DNA of 64,000 nt from Heliocidaris erythrogramma (lineage: Eukaryota > Echinodermata > Echinoidea > Camarodonta > Echinometridae): the NCBI GenBank assembly GCA_025617745.1, contig CM046858.1:46395697-46459696 (forward strand), written 5' to 3'. Numbering within the stretch: position 1 is the stretch's first letter; every line of letters begins with the position of its first letter. Made by a program: the position numbers and the translations under genes. A model generated the notes under the pieces. It saw only the letters and a program-made list of their open reading frames with translations. It ran no database searches and had not been told where the DNA came from. Below, in pieces: positions 13,570-57,468 of the stretch.

Positions 13570-13824
13570 GATAAAATATGGTAGTGATATATGCATGTCA
13601 ATATCTGAAAGGGAGGTAATCTAACAAATTATGTATATGGGGCTTACCCGTTTATATTTGGACTTTAGTCGAGTAATTTATGACAACCAGCCTGCACCGT
13701 TTTCTAAGCAATAGTCAACAGCAAGATTTGCTCTACATTAAATGATCTATATGAACGGATGATTCAAATTTACCTAGAAAAAAGAGAATTCTCTGAAGGC
13801 TTTAATCAAAGGACTTTGAGTGGG

Positions 13825-14283
13825 GTAACCTCGCTAGCCATAAGGACCGCTATTCATAAGGACCACTTATTCATAAGGACCGCTATCCATAACGAGTGAG
13901 TGTGTAATTGTGTGTGTGTAATTGGGTTTTTACAGACGTGTATCAATCAGATATGATTATTTACGTCTGGGATCGACCTTTAACGTCACCATCCGAAAGA
14001 CGTGACTCAGTCTCGAACCTGGGTCCGCTGAATCAGTTTATAACTTCCACTGGTAGCTGGATTACAGGCGCACGCCACAACGCCCAGTTAACGAGTGACT
14101 AAATGAATAGCGATTTTGAATGAATAGCTGTCCTTCTAAATAGCGAGCAAACCATAGACAAATTACCTCGCTATTCATAAGGACCTCAATTCATAAGGAC
14201 CACTATTTATAACTATTCATAAGGACAACTATTCATAACGCGTGTTAAATTAATAGCAGCCCTTATGAATAGCGAGCGGACCC
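13825..14283. repeat. Hairpin-type element (TCGCTATTCATAAGGACC), copy 1, split by a SINE
   Basis: Alternating forward and reverse copies of CTCGCTATTCATAAGGACC and AATAGCGGT-type arms make an internally self-complementary element. The SINE at 13900-14088 sits inside it, flanked by TAACGAGTGA on both sides. A related copy without the SINE is at 30662-30903. Confidence 0.75.
13900..14088 (-). mobile_element. 7SL-like SINE, copy 1 (complete, with 10-bp target duplication)
   Basis: On the minus strand the 189-bp element starts ACTGGGCGTTGTGGCGTGCG, continues CCTGTAATCCAGCTACCAG and later has GGACCCAGGTTCGAGACTGA. The first block resembles the 5' domain of 7SL RNA/Alu (GGGCG.GGTGGCGCG..CCTGTAGTCCCAGCTAC); the second resembles the Alu B-box region (GAGCCCAGGAGTTCGAGAC). 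The 3' body (GTCCCAGACGTAAATAATC..ACCCAATT) is not 7SL-like and ends in an AC-rich microsatellite, as expected of a LINE-derived tail. Target duplications TAACGAGTGA lie at 13890-13899 and 14089-14098. The 7SL origin is inferred by eye. Confidence 0.72.
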
Positions 14284-14765
14284 CCTTTGAGTAATGATTA
14301 AGGATTCTACCCGAAAAATAAATGTCTTTTTTTGTTTCACACACACTGTCGGAGAAGATATCTATTTATCTTAAACAATATGACCCATAGCTTGGAGGCC
14401 TTTGATGGATCTTGAGACACAGGTTCTCCAAAACTCTCTGTCTTAAGCTGTTCTAGAAGATAGAGTGCATTAATTAATGATGCCATTTGCTTTCAGCAAT
14501 ATCTTGCCAAAGATATAGGGTTGGGAGATTTGGGTTATGTTTAAGAGTACAACATACTGCGATTTATAATCTTCGGTCGAAATATGCCAATGGTGAATTT
14601 ATGATTTTGGCTAGTAAAATATTGACCGCGGAGAAATTATGACCGAAGAATGTGTCATCATACATTCCGCGTATACGGTACTCAAAAATTTACCATCTCC
14701 CCCTCCCCCCCCCCCCCAAAAAAAGAAGATAGATGAATGAATTTCTATTTCTTATATCCATATAG
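14284..14765. other. Intronic sequence before the next exon
   Basis: No further feature recognised apart from a C-tract and A-rich run at 14700-14725 upstream of the acceptor. The part up to 14434 is duplicated at 20913-21258. Confidence 0.5.
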
Positions 14766-20726: not shown

Positions 20727-20912
20727 GTGTGTGTGTTTGTAATTGGGTTTTTACAGACGTGTATCAATCAGATATGATTATTTAACGGGTCTGGGACCGA
20801 CCTTTAACGTCACCATCCGAAAGACGTGACTCAGTCTCGAACCTGGGTCCGCTGAATCAGTTTATAACTTCCACTGGTAGCTGGATTACAGGCGCACGCC
20901 ACAACGCCCAGT
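20727..20912 (-). mobile_element. 7SL-like SINE, copy 2, with co-copied 5' flank
   Basis: Near-identical to the SINE at 13900-14088, but followed at its 7SL-like end by 346 bases (20913-21258) that also follow copy 1 at that locus. After 21258 comes GCCCAGT, the same 7 bases as the SINE head, then CTAGTG, which resembles the CTAGTTG preceding the element at 20720-20726. The arrangement suggests that flank and SINE moved together. Confidence 0.72.
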
Positions 20913-21258
20913 TAACGAGTGACTAAATGAATAGCGATTTTGAATGAATAGCTGTCCTTCTAAATAGCGAGCAAACCATAGACAAATTACCTCGCTATTC
21001 ATAAGGACCTCAATTCATAAGGACCACTATTTATAACTATTCATAAGGACAACTATTCATAACGCGTGTTAAATTAATAGCAGCCCTTATGAATAGCGAG
21101 CGGACCCCCTTTGAGTAATGATTAAGGATTCTACCCGAAAAATAAATGTCTTTTTTTGTTTCACACACACTGTCGGAGAAGATATCTATTTATCTTAAAC
21201 AATATGACCCATAGCTTGGAGGCCTTTGATGGATCTTGAGACACAGGTTCTCCAAAAC
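20913..21258. repeat. Copy of 14089-14434 (flank of SINE copy 1)
   Basis: It begins with the TAACGAGTGA duplication that belongs to SINE copy 1 and runs through the hairpin-type repeat to GGTTCTCCAAAAC, where homology stops. Since TAACGAGTGA is a target duplication of copy 1, the sequence moved from the 13.9-kb locus (or a sister copy of it) to here. Confidence 0.8.
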
Positions 21259-22149
21259 GCCCAGTCTAGTGCAAGCTTTTATATACCCCTTATACTTTTT
21301 TATGCATTTGGTGACAGTTAGTGAAATCGGGCCACCCCAAACCATACGCTACTAAAAATTCATGAATATTCATATAAGTGTTTTCCCCAATATTGGGGGG
21401 AAAGTACGAAAATGCATATTTTACAAAACCATTTGCAAAACATTTTACTTAATGACGACAAATTACATTGTGCATGTTAAATAAACTTAACGAAATTGGC
21501 AATATTGCAAAATCTTTATGAAGAAATATCTTACAGCGTTATTTTGCAAGATTTTTTCAGTCAGTTTTACATAACTGTGTATCAAAATCATGTTAATGTC
21601 AACTGACATTCGTAAAATGTATTTTATACACAATAGTTTACAAAACATTTCACTTAATGATGGCTTTCAACATCTGCATGATAATATTCCCTTTAAAAAC
21701 ACTTGTACTTAACACATTTTACATAATAGGAATTTCTTTTGCAAAATGAATTTTACTTAAATAGTGCTAAGTAAATGTTACATAAAATTTCACATTTTGC
21801 ATGACACATAATATGCGAAATGTAATTCATTACAAATATTTAGTAAAATACTACATAAAAACATTCATTTCAGACAATTTTACATGTATTAAGTAAAAAT
21901 TTTACAAAAGGAAGTTTACGTAATGAAATATTAAGTAAATATTTCTCTGTGTGTACTGGAGGTGCTGTGAGCCAAAAAAATTAGGTCCTCAGCATTTTAG
22001 TGTCTCCTCTTCTGTCCAAAATTCTCTGACAAGCAAAAAAAAAAAAGAAGAAAAAAGGTCCTCAGCGTTTTAGGGTCTCTTTTTAACTACTTAAAAAAAA
22101 ATTGCAAGGGATGCTGTAGCACCCCGCACCCCCGGCTCCCAGGCACCTG

Positions 22150-43827: not shown

Positions 43828-46800
43828 TTCTTCTTCTTCTTCTTCTTTCGTTGTATGGTATCGGCAATCAGTCAAATTTGACTATTGTTGCCAATGACGT
43901 TATATATGTAATTCAAATTCAGTATTTCTGACTCCTTCTCTCTTTTAATTTACATTTAGAATCAAGTAAACATTTAATACTGTATGTACATCTGTATTTA
44001 AAACTTAATAAGAAAATAACAAAACACCACATGCTTCAGCTCAGTTCCAACTAGCGCTTGCCTAGCCCTTTCATAGATGCAATCTTACCGATACGGAGCG
44101 GTACTTTGCGCCGTTTTTTCGGACATGCCTTGGTAACTCATGCATAGACATAGGGGCGCTGTTGTACCTGTGCTTACTGATGGGTTGAAAATGTATTTTG
44201 GATAATTATCAATTAAAGAGATGAAAACACTTGTGGGATAAGTTAGTAGAAAATGGGGCTTCTAAATGCACATAATTGTGTGCATCATTAAGACATAACT
44301 TTTATAATATACACAAAGGAAGAAAATACATTTTGCATGAAACTCAGACCTACATAAAATACAAAATACTAGTATCCCTCACTACGAACACGATAACAAA
44401 AGAGAGCGGACAAAATACACAGCCCCCACCGCACCCCACAACCGCTCCGGCAGACAAAAGAACACCCCCACCGCCATTATGCAAAATAAGCAGAACAGGT
44501 GAAAATGCATGTGGCTCCTGTTCCACATAAAAAATTATATTCACATTACAGCAACGAAGGGACGCTCCCCCGTCCACCAGAGAAAATGCAGGAAGCACAG
44601 TGAGGAGCCGTATACCCCGTCCGCCCCCTTGCCTGCCATGTTCATGTAGTGCCTAGTTCTTCTTTACTGAGAAAGGAGGGTTAAAGCCTACCTTCCCCGA
44701 AAAACGCTTCGTTCGCAGAACGAAACGTGTAATAGCCCTTTGTATTTGGGGATCACTACTTTTCAAATACTCAATTATTTTTCTTTCATTGGTTTCATTC
44801 AGTTCAGACAGGAGCATCGCTCTCTCGATAATATATTTTGGGCAATCTATAAGGTAATGGCCGACAGTTTCAACCTGTTGACATCTGTCACAGAAACCAG
44901 TTGGATGAATACCTAGTCTTAATAGATCATGGTTGAGACCTATCACTCCAACTCGAAGACGATGGAGTATAATTTCTTGTTGTCTACCTAGGTTACAAGT
45001 GTAAGTGGATGTAATTGATGACTGCAGCTCTTTTAAACTGGAATTTGATTGATTCCATCTTTCTTGCCAGAGTACTTTGGAACTCTGAACTATAAGTTGT
45101 TTTATTTCTGTTATAGTGTTATTTTTGTTATATATTTCAATATTTTTGGATAGAGCAGCTTTTGCACACGAGTCTTGTACTATTTCATTGCCCGTGATTC
45201 CGCAGTGTCCTGGGATCCATTCCAAATATATATCTATTCCTTTGTACTTAAGCCTCGTACTAGTCGTTAGAATTTCATTAATAGTTGGTTCATTATTTTG
45301 GTTTTGTATGGATAAAAGAGCACTAAGTGAATCACTAAATATAACAATACCCGTGTAAATGTCCATATTTTCTACCCATTCGAGGGCTAGAAGAATAGCA
45401 ATCAATTCAGCCTTGTAAGACGAAGTGAAATTAGTCAATCTCTTCCCTCGATGTATTGAAAAGTATGGTACATAAAAGGCAGATGAACTTACTCCTTTAT
45501 CAGGTGATTTGGATCCGTCAGTGTATATGTGCAATTGACTTATCCATTTGGTGTGTATTAATTCAAGGCTCTGTTGTTGTAATTGCATGGGATGGTCTGT
45601 TTTCTTTAATTCTAAGTTTAATTCAGTAGATATGATTGGTGGACAGAATAACCATGGGGGAAACGGAAGGACTAAGTTTTTCGATAATTTCTTGTCCCAT
45701 CTTACACTGTAACCTGTATCCAAAAGGTTTACAAACACATTTGCCTTTTAGGTATTCAAATTGCCAGCATGGTTCTATATGACTTACCAGTGGGTGATTA
45801 AAATTTCTCTCAATACTTTGTCTGTACTTGCTAGATAACAATTGTCTTCTTAGGTCTAGAGGTAGTTCCCCCATTTCAACCTGTAAAGAACTCAAAGAGG
45901 TTAACGGGAGACACCCCGCACATATCCTAAGAGCTTGATATTGCACAGAATCTAAGATCTTTTTGGTAGTTTCAGCTGCACTATCATATGCTTGGCAACC
46001 GTAGTCCAGAAGAGATCTAATAAGTGCTCGATAAACAATTAGAAGGGATTTTGATGAACTTCCCCATTTTGTTCCTGTCAAACTACGTAATATGTTTAGT
46101 TTTCGTTTACATCTTGTAGCTACATTTTCTATATGAGAGTGCCAGGTCAATTTGCTATCAAATAAAATTCCTAAAAAACGGTGAGACGGTTTATATGTTA
46201 AAATATTCCCTTCCAAGTTCAATACTGGTTGAGGAATGTTTGAACTTTTCGTGAATAATACAGGTACAGTTTTCTCATTTGAGAGTTTAAAACCCCAGTC
46301 TTTGAACCAAGAGGATAATCTATCCAAATAAGATTGGATTTTCAATCCAATTATATCAACATGTTTACCAGACGTCCATACTGCACAGTCGTCTGCATAC
46401 ATAGATATTGTTACGTCTGGGTCTGTTGGAAAGTCCCTCATCATCACATTATAGAGGAGGGGGCTCAAAACACTACCTTGAGGTAAACCGTTATGCATTT
46501 TGTATGTGCTTGATTCTGTATCTCAGATTCTTACTTGAAAAGTACGTTCTGTTAGGTATTCACGTAAATAATTGTACATCCTTCCTTGTATACCACAATG
46601 AAATAGTTTAAATAAAATTCCTTCGACCCACAGGCTATCGTAGGCCTTTTCAACATCCAAAAAGACTACCAACGTATGCTCACAACAATTAATACTCTTT
46701 TGAATGTCATTCTCCAGGAGAACAATATTGTCAGTGGAACTACGCCCTTTTCTAAACCCACTCAAGAAATTAGGCAATAAATTATTCTTTTCTATGTACC

Positions 46801-49734: not shown

Positions 49735-52022
49735 AAATATTCAGCTTTATGATGGTAAATGCCACATACCGGGGCAAGATGTCTGGATCTTACTATTTTA
49801 ACTTAGTCCTTTAGACACCCCCTAAATAACCCGGCTTCCAACGAAGAGTCAGTCGGCATAATGATTGCAAAATACAGTGGTTAAATAAAAGCTCTCTCAA
49901 ATTTCCATCGACATTTTTTATTCTTGAGCTGATTAGCATTCTGGTATATATATGCGACATACCGGGGCAAGATGTCCGGATCTTACTCTTTAAACTTCAA
50001 CACGGCACATATTCTCAAAATATTACACTTCGTATGAACAATAGCGCCAGTGCGGTATTACGGGGCTTCACGTTACTCAATAATGAGGTTCGGAAGAAAA
50101 AGTGTTATAAATGTTCGCAAGACATTTCATATTTTTAACTGATTACACCATGAAAAAGGGGAGATATTCAGCTTTATTATGGTATAGGTCACTATGCTTA
50201 GCAAGTTGTGTGGATCTTACTGTTTAAACTTCACCACGGCACATATTCTCGAAATATTACACTTCGTATGAACATTAGCGCCAGTGCGGTATTACATGCG
50301 GCTTCACGTTACTCAATAATGAAGTTCTGCAGAAAAAGTGTTATAAATGTTCGCAAGACATTTCATATTCTTAGCTGTTTACAGCATGAAAAAGAGGAGA
50401 TATTCAGCTTCATCATGGTATAGGTCACTATGGTTAGCAAGTTGTCTGGATCTTACTGTTTAAACTTCAACAAGGCACATATTCTCGATATTATTACGCT
50501 TCACATGAACAATAGCGCCAGTGCGTTATTACGGGGCTTCCCGTTACTCAATAATGAAGTTCGGAAGAAAAAGTGTTATAAACATTCGCAAGACATTTCA
50601 TATTCTTAGCTGATTACACCATGAAATAGGGGAGATATTCAGCTTTATCATGGTATAGGTCACTATGCTTAGCAAGTTGTCTGGATCTTGCTGTTTAAAC
50701 TTCAACACGTCACATATTCTCGAAATATGACACTCAGCATTAGAGCGCTCGTATTGTTGAGCTTCGTATAACTCAATGTTGAAGTTCTGAAGAAAATGTG
50801 TTATAAATGTTCGCAAGACATTTCATATTCTTAGCTGATTACACCATGAGATAGAGGAGATATTCAGCTTTATCATGGTATAGGTCACTATGCTTAGCAA
50901 GTTGTCTGGATCTTACTGTTTAAACCTGAACACGGCACATATTCTCCAAATATGACACTTCGTATGAACAATAGCGCCAGTACGTGCGGTATTATGGGGC
51001 TTCGAGTTACTCAATGTTGAAGTTCTGAAGAAAATGTGTTATAAATGTTCGCAAGACATTTCATATTCTTAGCTGATTACACCATGAAATAGAGGAGATA
51101 TTCAGCTTTATCATGGTATAGGTCACTATGCTTAGCAAGTTGTCTGGATCTTACTGTTTAAACCTGAACACGGCACATATTCTCCAAATATGACACTTCG
51201 TATGAACAATAGCGCCAGTACGTGCGGTATTATGGGGCTTCGAGTTACTCAATGTTGAAGTTCTGAAGAAAATGTGTTATAAATGTTCGCAAGACATTTC
51301 ATATTCTTAGCTGATTACACCATGAGATAGAGGAGATATTCAGCTTTATTACGGTATAGGTCACTATGCTTAGCAAGTTGTCTGGATCTTACTGTTTAAA
51401 CTTCAACACGGCACATATTCTCCAAATATTACACTCCGCATTAAAGTGCTCGTATTGTATTATGGAGCTTCGTAACTCAATAATGAAGTTCTGAAGAAAA
51501 AGTGTTATAAATGTTCGCAAGACATTTCATATTCTTAGCTGATTACACCATGAAATAGAGGAGATATTCAGCTTTATCATGGTATAGGTCACTATTCTTA
51601 GCAAGTTGTGAGGATCTTACTGTTTAAACTTCAACAAGGCACATATTCTCGATATTATACGCATCACAATCATGAACAATAGCGCCAGTGCGGTATTACG
51701 GGGCTTCACGTTACTCAATAATGAAGTGCTGAAGAAAAAGTGTTATAAATGTTCGCAAGACATTTTATATTCTTAGCTGATTACACCATGAAATAGAGGG
51801 GATATTCAGCTTTATCATGGTATAGGTCACTATGCTTAGCAAGTTGTGTGGATCTTACTGTTTAAACTTCAACACGGCACATATTCTCGACATCTTACAC
51901 TCCGCGTTAAAGCGCTCGTATTGTATTATGGAGCTTCGTGTAACTCAATAATGAAGTGCTGAAGAAAAAGTTTTATAAATGTTCGCAAGACATTTCATAT
52001 TCTGATTACACAATGAAATAGA
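49735..52022 (+). repeat. Satellite array, 225-238-bp unit, ~9 copies, forward arm
   Basis: GCAAGACATTTCATATTCTTAG recurs at about 50117, 50353, 50588, 50813, 51051, 51289, 51517, 51755 and 51985. Each unit also has TATTCAGCTTTATCATGG and TGGATCTTACTGTTTAAAC. Units come in a longer type (TATGAACAATAGCGCCAGT) and a shorter type (GCATTAAAG.GCTCGTATTG). The first units at the left edge are degenerate. No gene. Confidence 0.92.
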
Positions 52023-55079: not shown

Positions 55080-57468
55080 ATTTTCCATTCAGGACTTCAT
55101 TATTGAGTCACCCGAAGCTTCATATAATACCATATGGGTGCTAATGTTCATACGAAGTGTATAATATTTCGGGAATATGTGCCGTGTTAAAGTTTAAACA
55201 GTAAGATCCACACAACTTGCTAAGCATAGTGACCTATACCATGATAAAGCTGAATATCTCCTCTATCTCATGGTGTAATCAGCTAAGAATATGAAATGTC
55301 TTGCGAACATTTATAACACATTTTCTTCAGAACTTCAACATTGAGTAACTCGAAGCCCCATAATACCGCACGTACTGGCGCTATTGTTCATACGAAGTGT
55401 CATATTTGGAGAATATGTGCCGTGTTCAGGTTTAAACAGTAAGATCCAGACAACTTGCTAAGCATAGTGACCTATACCATGATAAAGCTGAATATCTCCT
55501 CTATTTCATGGTGTAATCAGCTAAGAATATGAAATGTCTTGCGAACATTTATGACACTTTTTCTTCAGCACTTCATTATTGAGTTACGAAGCTCCATAAT
55601 ACAATACAGCGCTTTAATGCGGAGTGTAATATGTCGAGAATATGTACCGTGTTGAAGTTTAAACAGTAAGATCCAGACAACTTGCTAAGCATAGCGACCT
55701 ATACCATGATAAAGCTGAATATCTCCTCTTTTTCATGGTGTAATCAGCTAAGAATATGAAATGTCTTGCGAACATTTATAACACTTTTTTTCTGCAGAAC
55801 TTCATTATTGAGTTACGCGAAGCTGCATAGAATATTGCACTGGCGCTAATGTTCATACGAAGTGTAATATTTCGAGAATATGTGCCCTGTTGAAGTTTAA
55901 ACAGTAAGATCCAGACAACTTGCTAAGCATAGTGACCTATACCATGATAAAGCTGAATATCTCCTCTTTGTCATGCTGTAAACAGCTAAGGATATGAAAT
56001 GTCTTGCGAACATTTATAACACTTTTTCTTCAGCACTTCATTATTGAGTAACGTGAAGCCGCATGTAATACCGCACTGGCGCTAATGTTCATACGAAGTG
56101 TAATATTTCGAGAATATGTGCCGTGTTAAAGTTTAAGCAGTCAGATCCACACAACTTGCTAAGCATAGTGACCTATACCATGATAAAGCTGAATATCTCC
56201 TCTATTTCATGGAGTAATCAGCTAAGAATATAAAATGTCTTGCGAACATTTATAAAACTTTTTCTGCAGAACTTCATTATTGAGTTACGAAGCTCCATAA
56301 TACAATACAGCGCTTTAATGCGGAGTGTAATATGTCGAGAATATGTACCGTGTTGAAGTTTAAACAGTAAGATCCAGACAACTTGCTAAGCATAGCGACC
56401 TATACCATGATAAAGCTGAATATCTCCTCTTTTTCATGCTGTAAACAGCTAAGAATATGAAATGTCTTGCGAACATTTATAACACTTTTTCTTCAGCACT
56501 TCATTATTGAGTTACGCGAAGCTGCATAGAATATTGCACTGGCGCTAATGTTCATACGAAGTGTAATATTTCGAGAATATGTACCGTGTTGAAGTTTAAA
56601 CAGTAAGATCCAGACAACTTGCTAAGCATAGCGACCTATACCATGATAAAGCTGAATATCTCCTCTTTTTCATGCTGTAAACAGCTAAGAATATGAAATG
56701 TCTTGCGAACATTTATAACACTTTTTCTTCAGCACTTCATTATTGAGTTACGCGAAGCTGCATAGAATATTGCACTGGCACTAATGTTCATACGAAGTGT
56801 AATATTTCGAGAATATGTGCCCTGTTGAAGTTTAAACAGTAAGATCCAGACAACTTGCTAAGCATAGTGACCTATACCATGATAAAGCCGAATAGATCCT
56901 CTTTTTCATGGTGTAATCAGCTAAGAATATGAAATGTCTTGCGAACATTTATAACACTTTTTCTTCAGCACTTCATTATTGAGTTACGTGAAGCCGCATG
57001 TAATACCGCACTGGCGTTAATGTTCATACGAAGTGTATAATATTTCGGGAATATGTGCCGTGTTAAAGTTTAAACAGTAAGATCCACACAACTTGCTAAG
57101 CATAGTGACCTATACCATGATAAAGCTGAATATCTCCTCTGTTTCATGGTGTAAACAGCTAAGAATATGAAATGTCTTGCGAACATCTGTAACACTTGTA
57201 ATACTAGCTTGATTCATTTTGAATTGAGCGATGTTCTTCGCCGGAAGAACGGTATTCGAATTTTCTTATGAAAGCAATAAATTCCGAATTATTGGTTTGA
57301 AATTTTAATAGTTTGGCCCATGCTATTTAAGATGCAACGATGACTATTTTTAGACCAATTTTCACTCCCTACAGATTCCAAATTTAGTAAATGAATGGTA
57401 TTACATTATCTTTTTAATTTAGAAATATTTTTCTGTTTTCTGTTGGACGTTTCGGCAACACCCTAATT
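55080..57468 (-). repeat. Satellite array, reverse arm, ~9 copies, plus terminal segment
   Basis: The same unit as 49735-52022 in the opposite orientation (CTTGCGAACATTTAT at about 55302, 55540, 55766, 56004, 56238, 56467, 56702, 56938 and 57177). Long and short unit types are interspersed. After the last unit, 57190-57468 is a terminal segment ending GGACGTTTCGGCAACACC then CTAATTGG, homologous to 32140-32392. Confidence 0.92.

Follow-up and report, generated by a model that had tools for sequence, protein, structure and literature searches.

SINEs whose head derives from 7SL RNA (SINE1) have been reported in primates, rodents and hagfishes according to the excerpt of PMC10886601, and the hagfish family is presented in the excerpt of PMC7245038 as the first evident SINE1 outside the Euarchontoglires. 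The preliminary description of the DNA studied here had placed such elements in Euarchontoglires and hagfish only, which agrees with both sources as far as their excerpts go (PMC7245038; PMC10886601). The hagfish element SINE1-1_EBu of Eptatretus burgeri resembles the element described below in its 7SL head, unrelated body, LINE-type tail (putative here), microsatellite end and occurrence outside mammals, and Alu, B1 and FLAM share with it the 7SL 5' domain at the 5' end as well as the A and B boxes (PMC7245038, excerpt). An invertebrate 7SL SINE was not among the literature matches listed, judged by title and start of abstract, and an entry held only in Repbase or Dfam is possible; the sequence letters of the SINE gave no literature match.

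The window (the whole stretch of DNA analysed, 64,000 nucleotides) contains three copies of a SINE, as the preliminary description had reported. All three lie on the minus strand, and copies 2 and 3 are 97% identical to copy 1. Copy 2 is no independent insertion, since its 5' flank and its duplication site are those of copy 1; it is therefore a duplicate or converted copy. The family to which these copies belong is called family A here, and its parts are the following:

13900-14088, minus strand: SINE copy 1, with a 10-bp duplication at both ends
14089-14098, no strand: 5' target-site duplication TCACTCGTTA
13890-13899, no strand: 3' target-site duplication TCACTCGTTA
14043-14088, minus strand: 7SL-derived head of copy 1 (36/36, two extra letters, TGGAAGT 7/7; Rfam RF00017)
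13999-14042, minus strand: hairpin segment 3' of the 7SL head (element nt 47-90), its fold compared with shuffles
14009-14019, minus strand: B box GGTTCGAGACT, tRNA-like, in the segment without a 7SL match
13970-14008, minus strand: body common to families A and B
13933-13969, minus strand: predicted 3' stem-loop CAGACGU...ACGUCUG (outer-stem pair probabilities 0.82-0.87)
13900-13932, minus strand: 3' end with (AC)n tail
20912 to ~20728, minus strand: copy 2, with the 5' flank of copy 1 and another 3' flank
26722 to ~26526, minus strand: copy 3, with unrelated flanks, beside a 26-bp tandem repeat

The head of copy 1 is 46 nt long and consists of 7SL nt 1-44 plus a 2-nt insertion; it covers the H2-H3-H4 5' domain of the SRP Alu domain and includes the 7SL A box. 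By the appearance of 20730-21275 (minus strand), copy 2 looks like the product of conversion or template switching. At ~21265, ten SINE letters (ACTGGGCGTT) precede ~345 bases matching the locus at 14.09-14.43 kb, which are followed by copy 2, and the flank after copy 2 resembles the flanks of SINE copies L005, L066 and L067 elsewhere in the genome. The insertion site of copy 1 lies within CTATTCATAAGGACC repeats, which occur in both orientations at 13800-14300 and 20990-21100, around copies 1 and 2. Elsewhere in the window, two arrays of a ~236/466-bp satellite were noted at 49967-52003 and 55088-57197, the listed units being mutual reverse complements by eye, and 44653-46522 on the minus strand holds a broken LINE whose reading frames resemble RT and RNase H (also by eye).

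The genome analysed comprises 1.06 Gb in 26 contigs. Contig C24 (12,905 bases) is mitochondrial, and its COX1 is open with TGA as Trp and sensible only with AAA as Asn, ATA as Ile, AGA as Ser and TGA as Trp; three of the four AAA codons in COX1 stand at what we take to be positions with a conserved Asn. The gene order on this contig is COX1, trnR(tcg), ND4L, COX2. The genome had been called echinoderm-like, and this is upheld by the mitochondrial code and the COX1-trnR-ND4L-COX2 order, both of which we take to be of the echinoderm type; by look, COX1 is presumably closest to that of sea urchins. At least 18 host 7SL genes score above the RF00017 cut-off (248-278 bits; 12 on C16, five on C4 and one on C1), a count that is a lower bound with 26 of 11,405 first-look candidates scored. 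Nine of these genes are identical. They form part of a cluster of 12 7SL genes at C16:41246598-41716167, and diverged 7SL genes with CCAGTTGC or CCAGTTAC are located on C4 and C1.

The cmscan analysis of the whole window against 4,227 Rfam families (E<=1) assigned Metazoa_SRP matches to the three SINE copies only. Each copy reached 34.3 bits (E 3.3e-5), which falls under the gathering score of 70 for this family. In a search of 271 bases, the Metazoa_SRP match had an E value of 1.4e-7, and there were zero tRNA or 5S matches in Rfam at E<=10. Nucleotides 1-36 of the SINE are identical to nt 1-36 of the commonest host 7SL (36/36); two extra letters follow, and then TGGAAGT, which again agrees with the host 7SL (7/7). 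At five positions (nt 1, 3, 9, 10 and 17) the host 7SL has a letter other than that of the Rfam consensus, and the SINE carries the host letter at each of them. It had been set beforehand that the host 7SL should be closer to the head than tRNA or 5S RNA, and this is what was found (36/36 against no tRNA/5S match at E<=10); a tRNA or 5S head was rejected on the same figures. Derivation of the head from the host 7SL RNA can be regarded as practically certain.

The similarity ends at 7SL nt 44, which leaves 44 of its 298 nt recognisable. Helix H2 is closed by nt 42-44 in the Rfam structure, and thus the retained piece of 7SL is one closed domain. Four stretches of the SINE past this point matched the host 7SL no better than 199, 471, 428 and 246 of 500 letter shuffles, respectively. 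Two parts of the minus strand had been likened to 7SL in the preliminary description: the likeness of the start stands (36/36 to the host 7SL), and that of the GGACCCAGGTTCGAGACTGA B-box block does not, as the three stretches over this block were equalled by 199, 428 and 471 of 500 letter shuffles. Its further statement, that the body is unrelated to 7SL and the element ends in an AC repeat, fits the end of 7SL similarity at nt 44 and the observed (AC)n tail. The RF00017 model end was placed by cmscan in the 3' part of family A with low posterior, and no 3' part of 7SL above chance was detected in this family (199/500 shuffles). The SINE thus has the 7SL-derived 5' part of a SINE1 (36/36; RF00017 matches) and lacks the central S domain, as a SINE1 does. 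Box A of the SINE is GGCGTTGTGG, while box A of 7SL is given as GGCGCAGTGG in hagfish and GGCGCGGTGG in human in the excerpt of PMC7245038. These differences, together with the host-specific letters, favour capture within the host lineage. We consider it highly likely that the element is a chimera (7SL head, non-7SL hairpin with the B box, body, predicted stem-loop and (AC)n) that arose by local capture. Internal A and B boxes are present and, judging from sequence, would allow transcription by pol III. Contamination with vertebrate DNA was rejected because there are thousands of copies in the genome, with local duplications and host-specific 7SL letters. The head pattern had 0 matches in a collection of viral contigs and 0 in a collection of genome contigs.

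A second family, family B, has a 7SL start and a body as in family A, and its 3' end is (ATTC)n. In its copies an exact 7SL start is followed by a diverged remainder of the 5' domain, then by the B box, the body and (ATTC)n. The search with copy L101, which adjoins an RT locus, returned 699 candidates and at least 40 scored matches, 39 of them besides L101 at 96-98%. The reading of L101 as an old decayed relative was given up, because L101 proved to be a single mutated member of a family with little divergence. None of 2000 shuffles was as good as the L101 head against 7SL; the Rfam search on this single copy gave no match at E<=10. Among 12 of these family B matches, 7SL nt 2-27 are exact in 12/12 copies and nt 1-27 in 10/12, and copies L149 and L158 were aligned by cmscan with model positions 1-44 and no others (E 2.6e-4 and 2.9e-4). 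By eye, the same two copies have the duplications TTCCCATCCTTTATC and CAATGAG. The flanks of the 12 copies fall into 6 distinct kinds, with one shared by six copies and another by two, so part of family B rides in other repeats. The occurrence of one head start with two tails in two families suggests that the head is a constant module and the tail exchangeable.

The B box is GGTTCGAGACT in family A and GGTTCGAGCCC in family B. Both fit what we take to be the tRNA-type consensus better than that of 7SL, family B being the more tRNA-like. A tRNA origin of the B-box part gained no match to a tRNA model in Rfam at E<=10 in either family; the tRNA-derived head of a SINE2 was not found, nor did ARAGORN report any tRNA in the L101 copy. 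The motif CTTTCGGATGGTGACGTTAAAGG presumably recalls one common in invertebrate SINEs. As to structure, the hairpin at nt 47-90 folds as well in only 4/500 letter shuffles in family A and 20/500 in family B, and in the modelled fold it would occupy the place of H5 of Alu RNA, with other sequence. Folding of the head, suggested earlier as a test for the 7SL Alu-domain structure, gave no support to that structure: the 94-nt head region is no more stable than its shuffles (z -0.55; 50/200 fold as well), and the 7SL helices are absent from the minimum-energy folds of the family A and B heads. Ensemble folding of the whole element gave the H4 pairs probabilities of 0.50-0.73, and all H2 and H3 pairs stayed at or below 0.5. 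Among nine hand-picked aligned rows of the 5' domain, 0 pairs are changed on both sides; 80.6% of the cells pair, against 34-54% in slid versions, a value expected from sequences close to 7SL. It is therefore sequence identity with 7SL that argues for a 7SL fold of the head.

The pattern of 44 nt across the 7SL/non-7SL junction (<=3 mismatches) has 3,979 matches in the genome, and the 35-nt tail pattern has 4,912, with 0 matches for the reversed control in both cases; 490 matches were obtained with the exact pattern of the CTAAC-type subfamily. That the copies belong to a dispersed family is confirmed by the 3,979 junction matches and by target-site duplications, and dispersed copies with such duplications are what is generally understood as a SINE. 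Outside the search patterns, divergence is 0.8% for the CTACC type (37/38 loci scored), 3.1% for the CTAAC type (19/20) and 0.3% for family B (12/12); the two subfamilies differ (p=0.002), and their ages are biased young, unequally, because the exact patterns used to select the loci differed in length. The first 15.65 Mb of C1 contain 38 exact tails, 28 of them without an exact head. The inspection of 22 of these 28 (20 loci) revealed 16 with a 7SL head, 4 truncated at the 5' end and 2 in satellite, and an alternative head in 0/22; the remaining six, which were left out, belong to two tandem groups. We conclude that family A is a young echinoderm SINE family with a head captured from the 7SL RNA of its own host.

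The 5' end lies within 3 nt of the 7SL start in 60/65 copies. Target-site duplications of 10-16 bp were found in 6/35 distinct flanks (200 shuffles gave a mean of 0.23 and a maximum of 2) when at least 8 letters with a slack of 2 nt were scored and copies flanked by SINE sequence were excluded, and 29/35 flanks have no duplication of at least 8 letters. With a looser criterion, duplications were scored in 7 of 53 copies, two of these being simple-repeat matches, against a shuffled mean of 0.96 and a maximum of 3. Retroposition of the SINE, as the source of at least part of the copies, is in our opinion established with hardly any doubt. Because flanks recur among several copies, tandem arrays and carriage within other repeats account for part of the copy number. 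Copies L005, L038, L066, L067 and L150 have a common flank like CTATAAGGTGCATATAAAAGATTG, and a larger repeat bearing this flank carries the SINE and probably spreads it. In L150, family B is followed by family A within the larger repeat, and L077 and L078 have common flanks. In L052 (C1:35967500-35969700) and L071 (C10:41563500-41564900), SINE units follow one another head to tail in tandem arrays and are joined at the (AC)n tail.

Two 3' ends of the SINE type occur, CACGTCTGTAAAAACCCAATTACAC and CACGTCTTAAAACCTAACT(ATTC)n. The predicted stem-loop CAGACGU/ACGUCUG is likely the element recognised by a LINE reverse transcriptase. The SINE tail was not found outside SINE copies in 190 kb of sequence, and it was absent from 30 RT loci (30 of 150 listed RT matches), apart from L101 and L106. 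Five stretches behind ORFs of four LINE families had no shared tail, and some of these stretches may stop before the LINE ends. At L106 (1306-1338), an inverted ACACATCTGTAAAAACCCATTACAC(AC)n, similar to the SINE tail, coincides exactly with the 5' junction of a truncated LINE that we take to be Tx1/L1-like. This inverted tail is possibly a product of twin priming or template switching, and another element with such an end may exist.

The history that best joins these results would begin with an existing tRNA-type SINE whose 5' half was replaced by the 7SL 5' domain, probably through template switching during reverse transcription. The chimera would be transcribed by pol III from the 7SL A box and the B box, its 5' domain would bind SRP9/14 and dock the RNA on ribosomes close to LINE reverse transcriptase as it is being synthesised, and this enzyme would recognise the predicted 3' stem-loop. 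Docking through SRP9/14 has, in our estimation, about an even chance of being correct; SRP9/14 has reportedly been crystallised on the isolated 5' domain, and the 44-nt 7SL 5' domain is, to our knowledge, the smallest piece expected to bind it. We propose more tentatively, with somewhat less than even credence, that invertebrates evolved Alu-type parasites of their own. These would form a superfamily of echinoderm SINEs whose constant ribosome-docking module would be the 44-nt 7SL 5' domain alone; a tRNA-type B-box hairpin would replace H5, at least two LINE tails would be used, and the younger subfamily would have moved back toward the host 7SL.

The tRNA-like B box, more pronounced in family B, and the tRNA heads of three S. 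purpuratus SINE entries in the excerpt of PMC3747384 would also suit an ordinary tRNA-derived SINE (SINE2) with a 7SL-like head acquired by chance or convergence. However, the identity to the host 7SL from base 1 (36/36), the Metazoa_SRP match (E 1.4e-7) without any tRNA match at E<=10 and the 7SL-like head of family B (0/2000 shuffles, L101 copy) leave this explanation very improbable. A tRNA-derived SINE is refuted as the source of the head and possible as that of the B-box half. The multiplication of 7SL retrocopies in marsupials and guinea pig, noted in the excerpt of PMC7245038, raises the thought of a group of 7SL retropseudogenes without any SINE. This has a negligible probability given thousands of matches to the junction and the non-7SL tail and only 44/298 nt of 7SL recognisable, and such a group was ruled out by the uniform chimeric structure.

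Two further explanations accept the chimera and concern its history. The head of an older SINE could have been restored to the exact 7SL sequence through template switching or conversion, with 7SL RNA or 7SL genes as the source. In favour of this, the more diverged subfamily has GCTAAC, the less diverged one has GCTACC and so agrees with the host 7SL at nt 36, and the exact 7SL length differs between families (36 nt in family A, 27 nt in family B). A change of one letter may nevertheless occur by chance, exact identity needs no refreshing because 7SL is conserved, and the ages of the subfamily samples are biased by their selection with exact patterns of unequal length; we therefore regard a refreshed head as unlikely. 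A mode of spread in which most copies are carried along by other transposons or arise in tandem arrays, rather than by retroposition, would account for the flanks common to L005, L038, L066, L067 and L150 and to 6 + 2 of the 12 family B copies, for the arrays in L052 and L071 and for the 29/35 flanks without a clear duplication. It is less easily reconciled with duplications of 10-16 bp at unrelated sites, the sharp 5' end at the 7SL start, the 5'-truncated copies and the microsatellite 3' ends, and we judge it quite improbable.

The requirement of a tRNA-related head for the acceptance of SINEs, stated in the excerpt on a large bivalve survey (PMC10294476), is a blind spot, as it would, in the form given there, discard families with a 7SL head. 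The echinoderm SINEs SURF1/SINE2-4c_SP, SINE2-3_SP and SINE2-8_SP are similar to the present element in their host group; they are listed with CR1/L2 LINE partners and with tRNA-derived heads, the latter a distinction drawn from the table description in the excerpt of PMC3747384. A sea-urchin SINE2 of this kind could have supplied the B-box half, the body or the tail. The Tu type SINEs of tree shrews and GarnAlu are, by description, likewise fusions of 7SL-derived and tRNA-type parts, but they are descendants of the mammalian lineage (excerpt of PMC7245038). According to the same excerpt, Alu and B1 are made up of 7SL sequence, have a poly-A end and rely on L1, whereas the SINE studied here has 44 nt of 7SL, its own body and (AC)n (PMC7245038). 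Hagfish SINE1-1_EBu retains 5' and 3' parts of 7SL (~140 nt) and has an RTE tail and AAC repeats (PMC7245038, excerpt), in contrast to 7SL nt 1-44 only, a tRNA-like B box and (AC)n or (ATTC)n here. Of the two strands of the 7SL Alu domain, 5' and 3', that are kept in the Alu/B1 and hagfish lineages, the 3' one is not retained in this element, the non-7SL hairpin standing in its place, and neither are the whole 7SL Alu domain and poly-A expected of descent from FLAM/PB1, the body being different and the end (AC)n. As only the 7SL 5' domain is kept and the body and tail differ, the element is a SINE1 by its head that stands outside the described Alu/B1 and hagfish lineages. Its body, its tail, the length of 7SL kept and the host-specific letters of the head indicate that it probably had an independent origin in an echinoderm. 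If so, the echinoderm case would show which part an Alu-type head requires, the 5' domain that binds SRP9/14, and which parts are dispensable, namely the S domain, the 3' strand of the Alu domain and L1.
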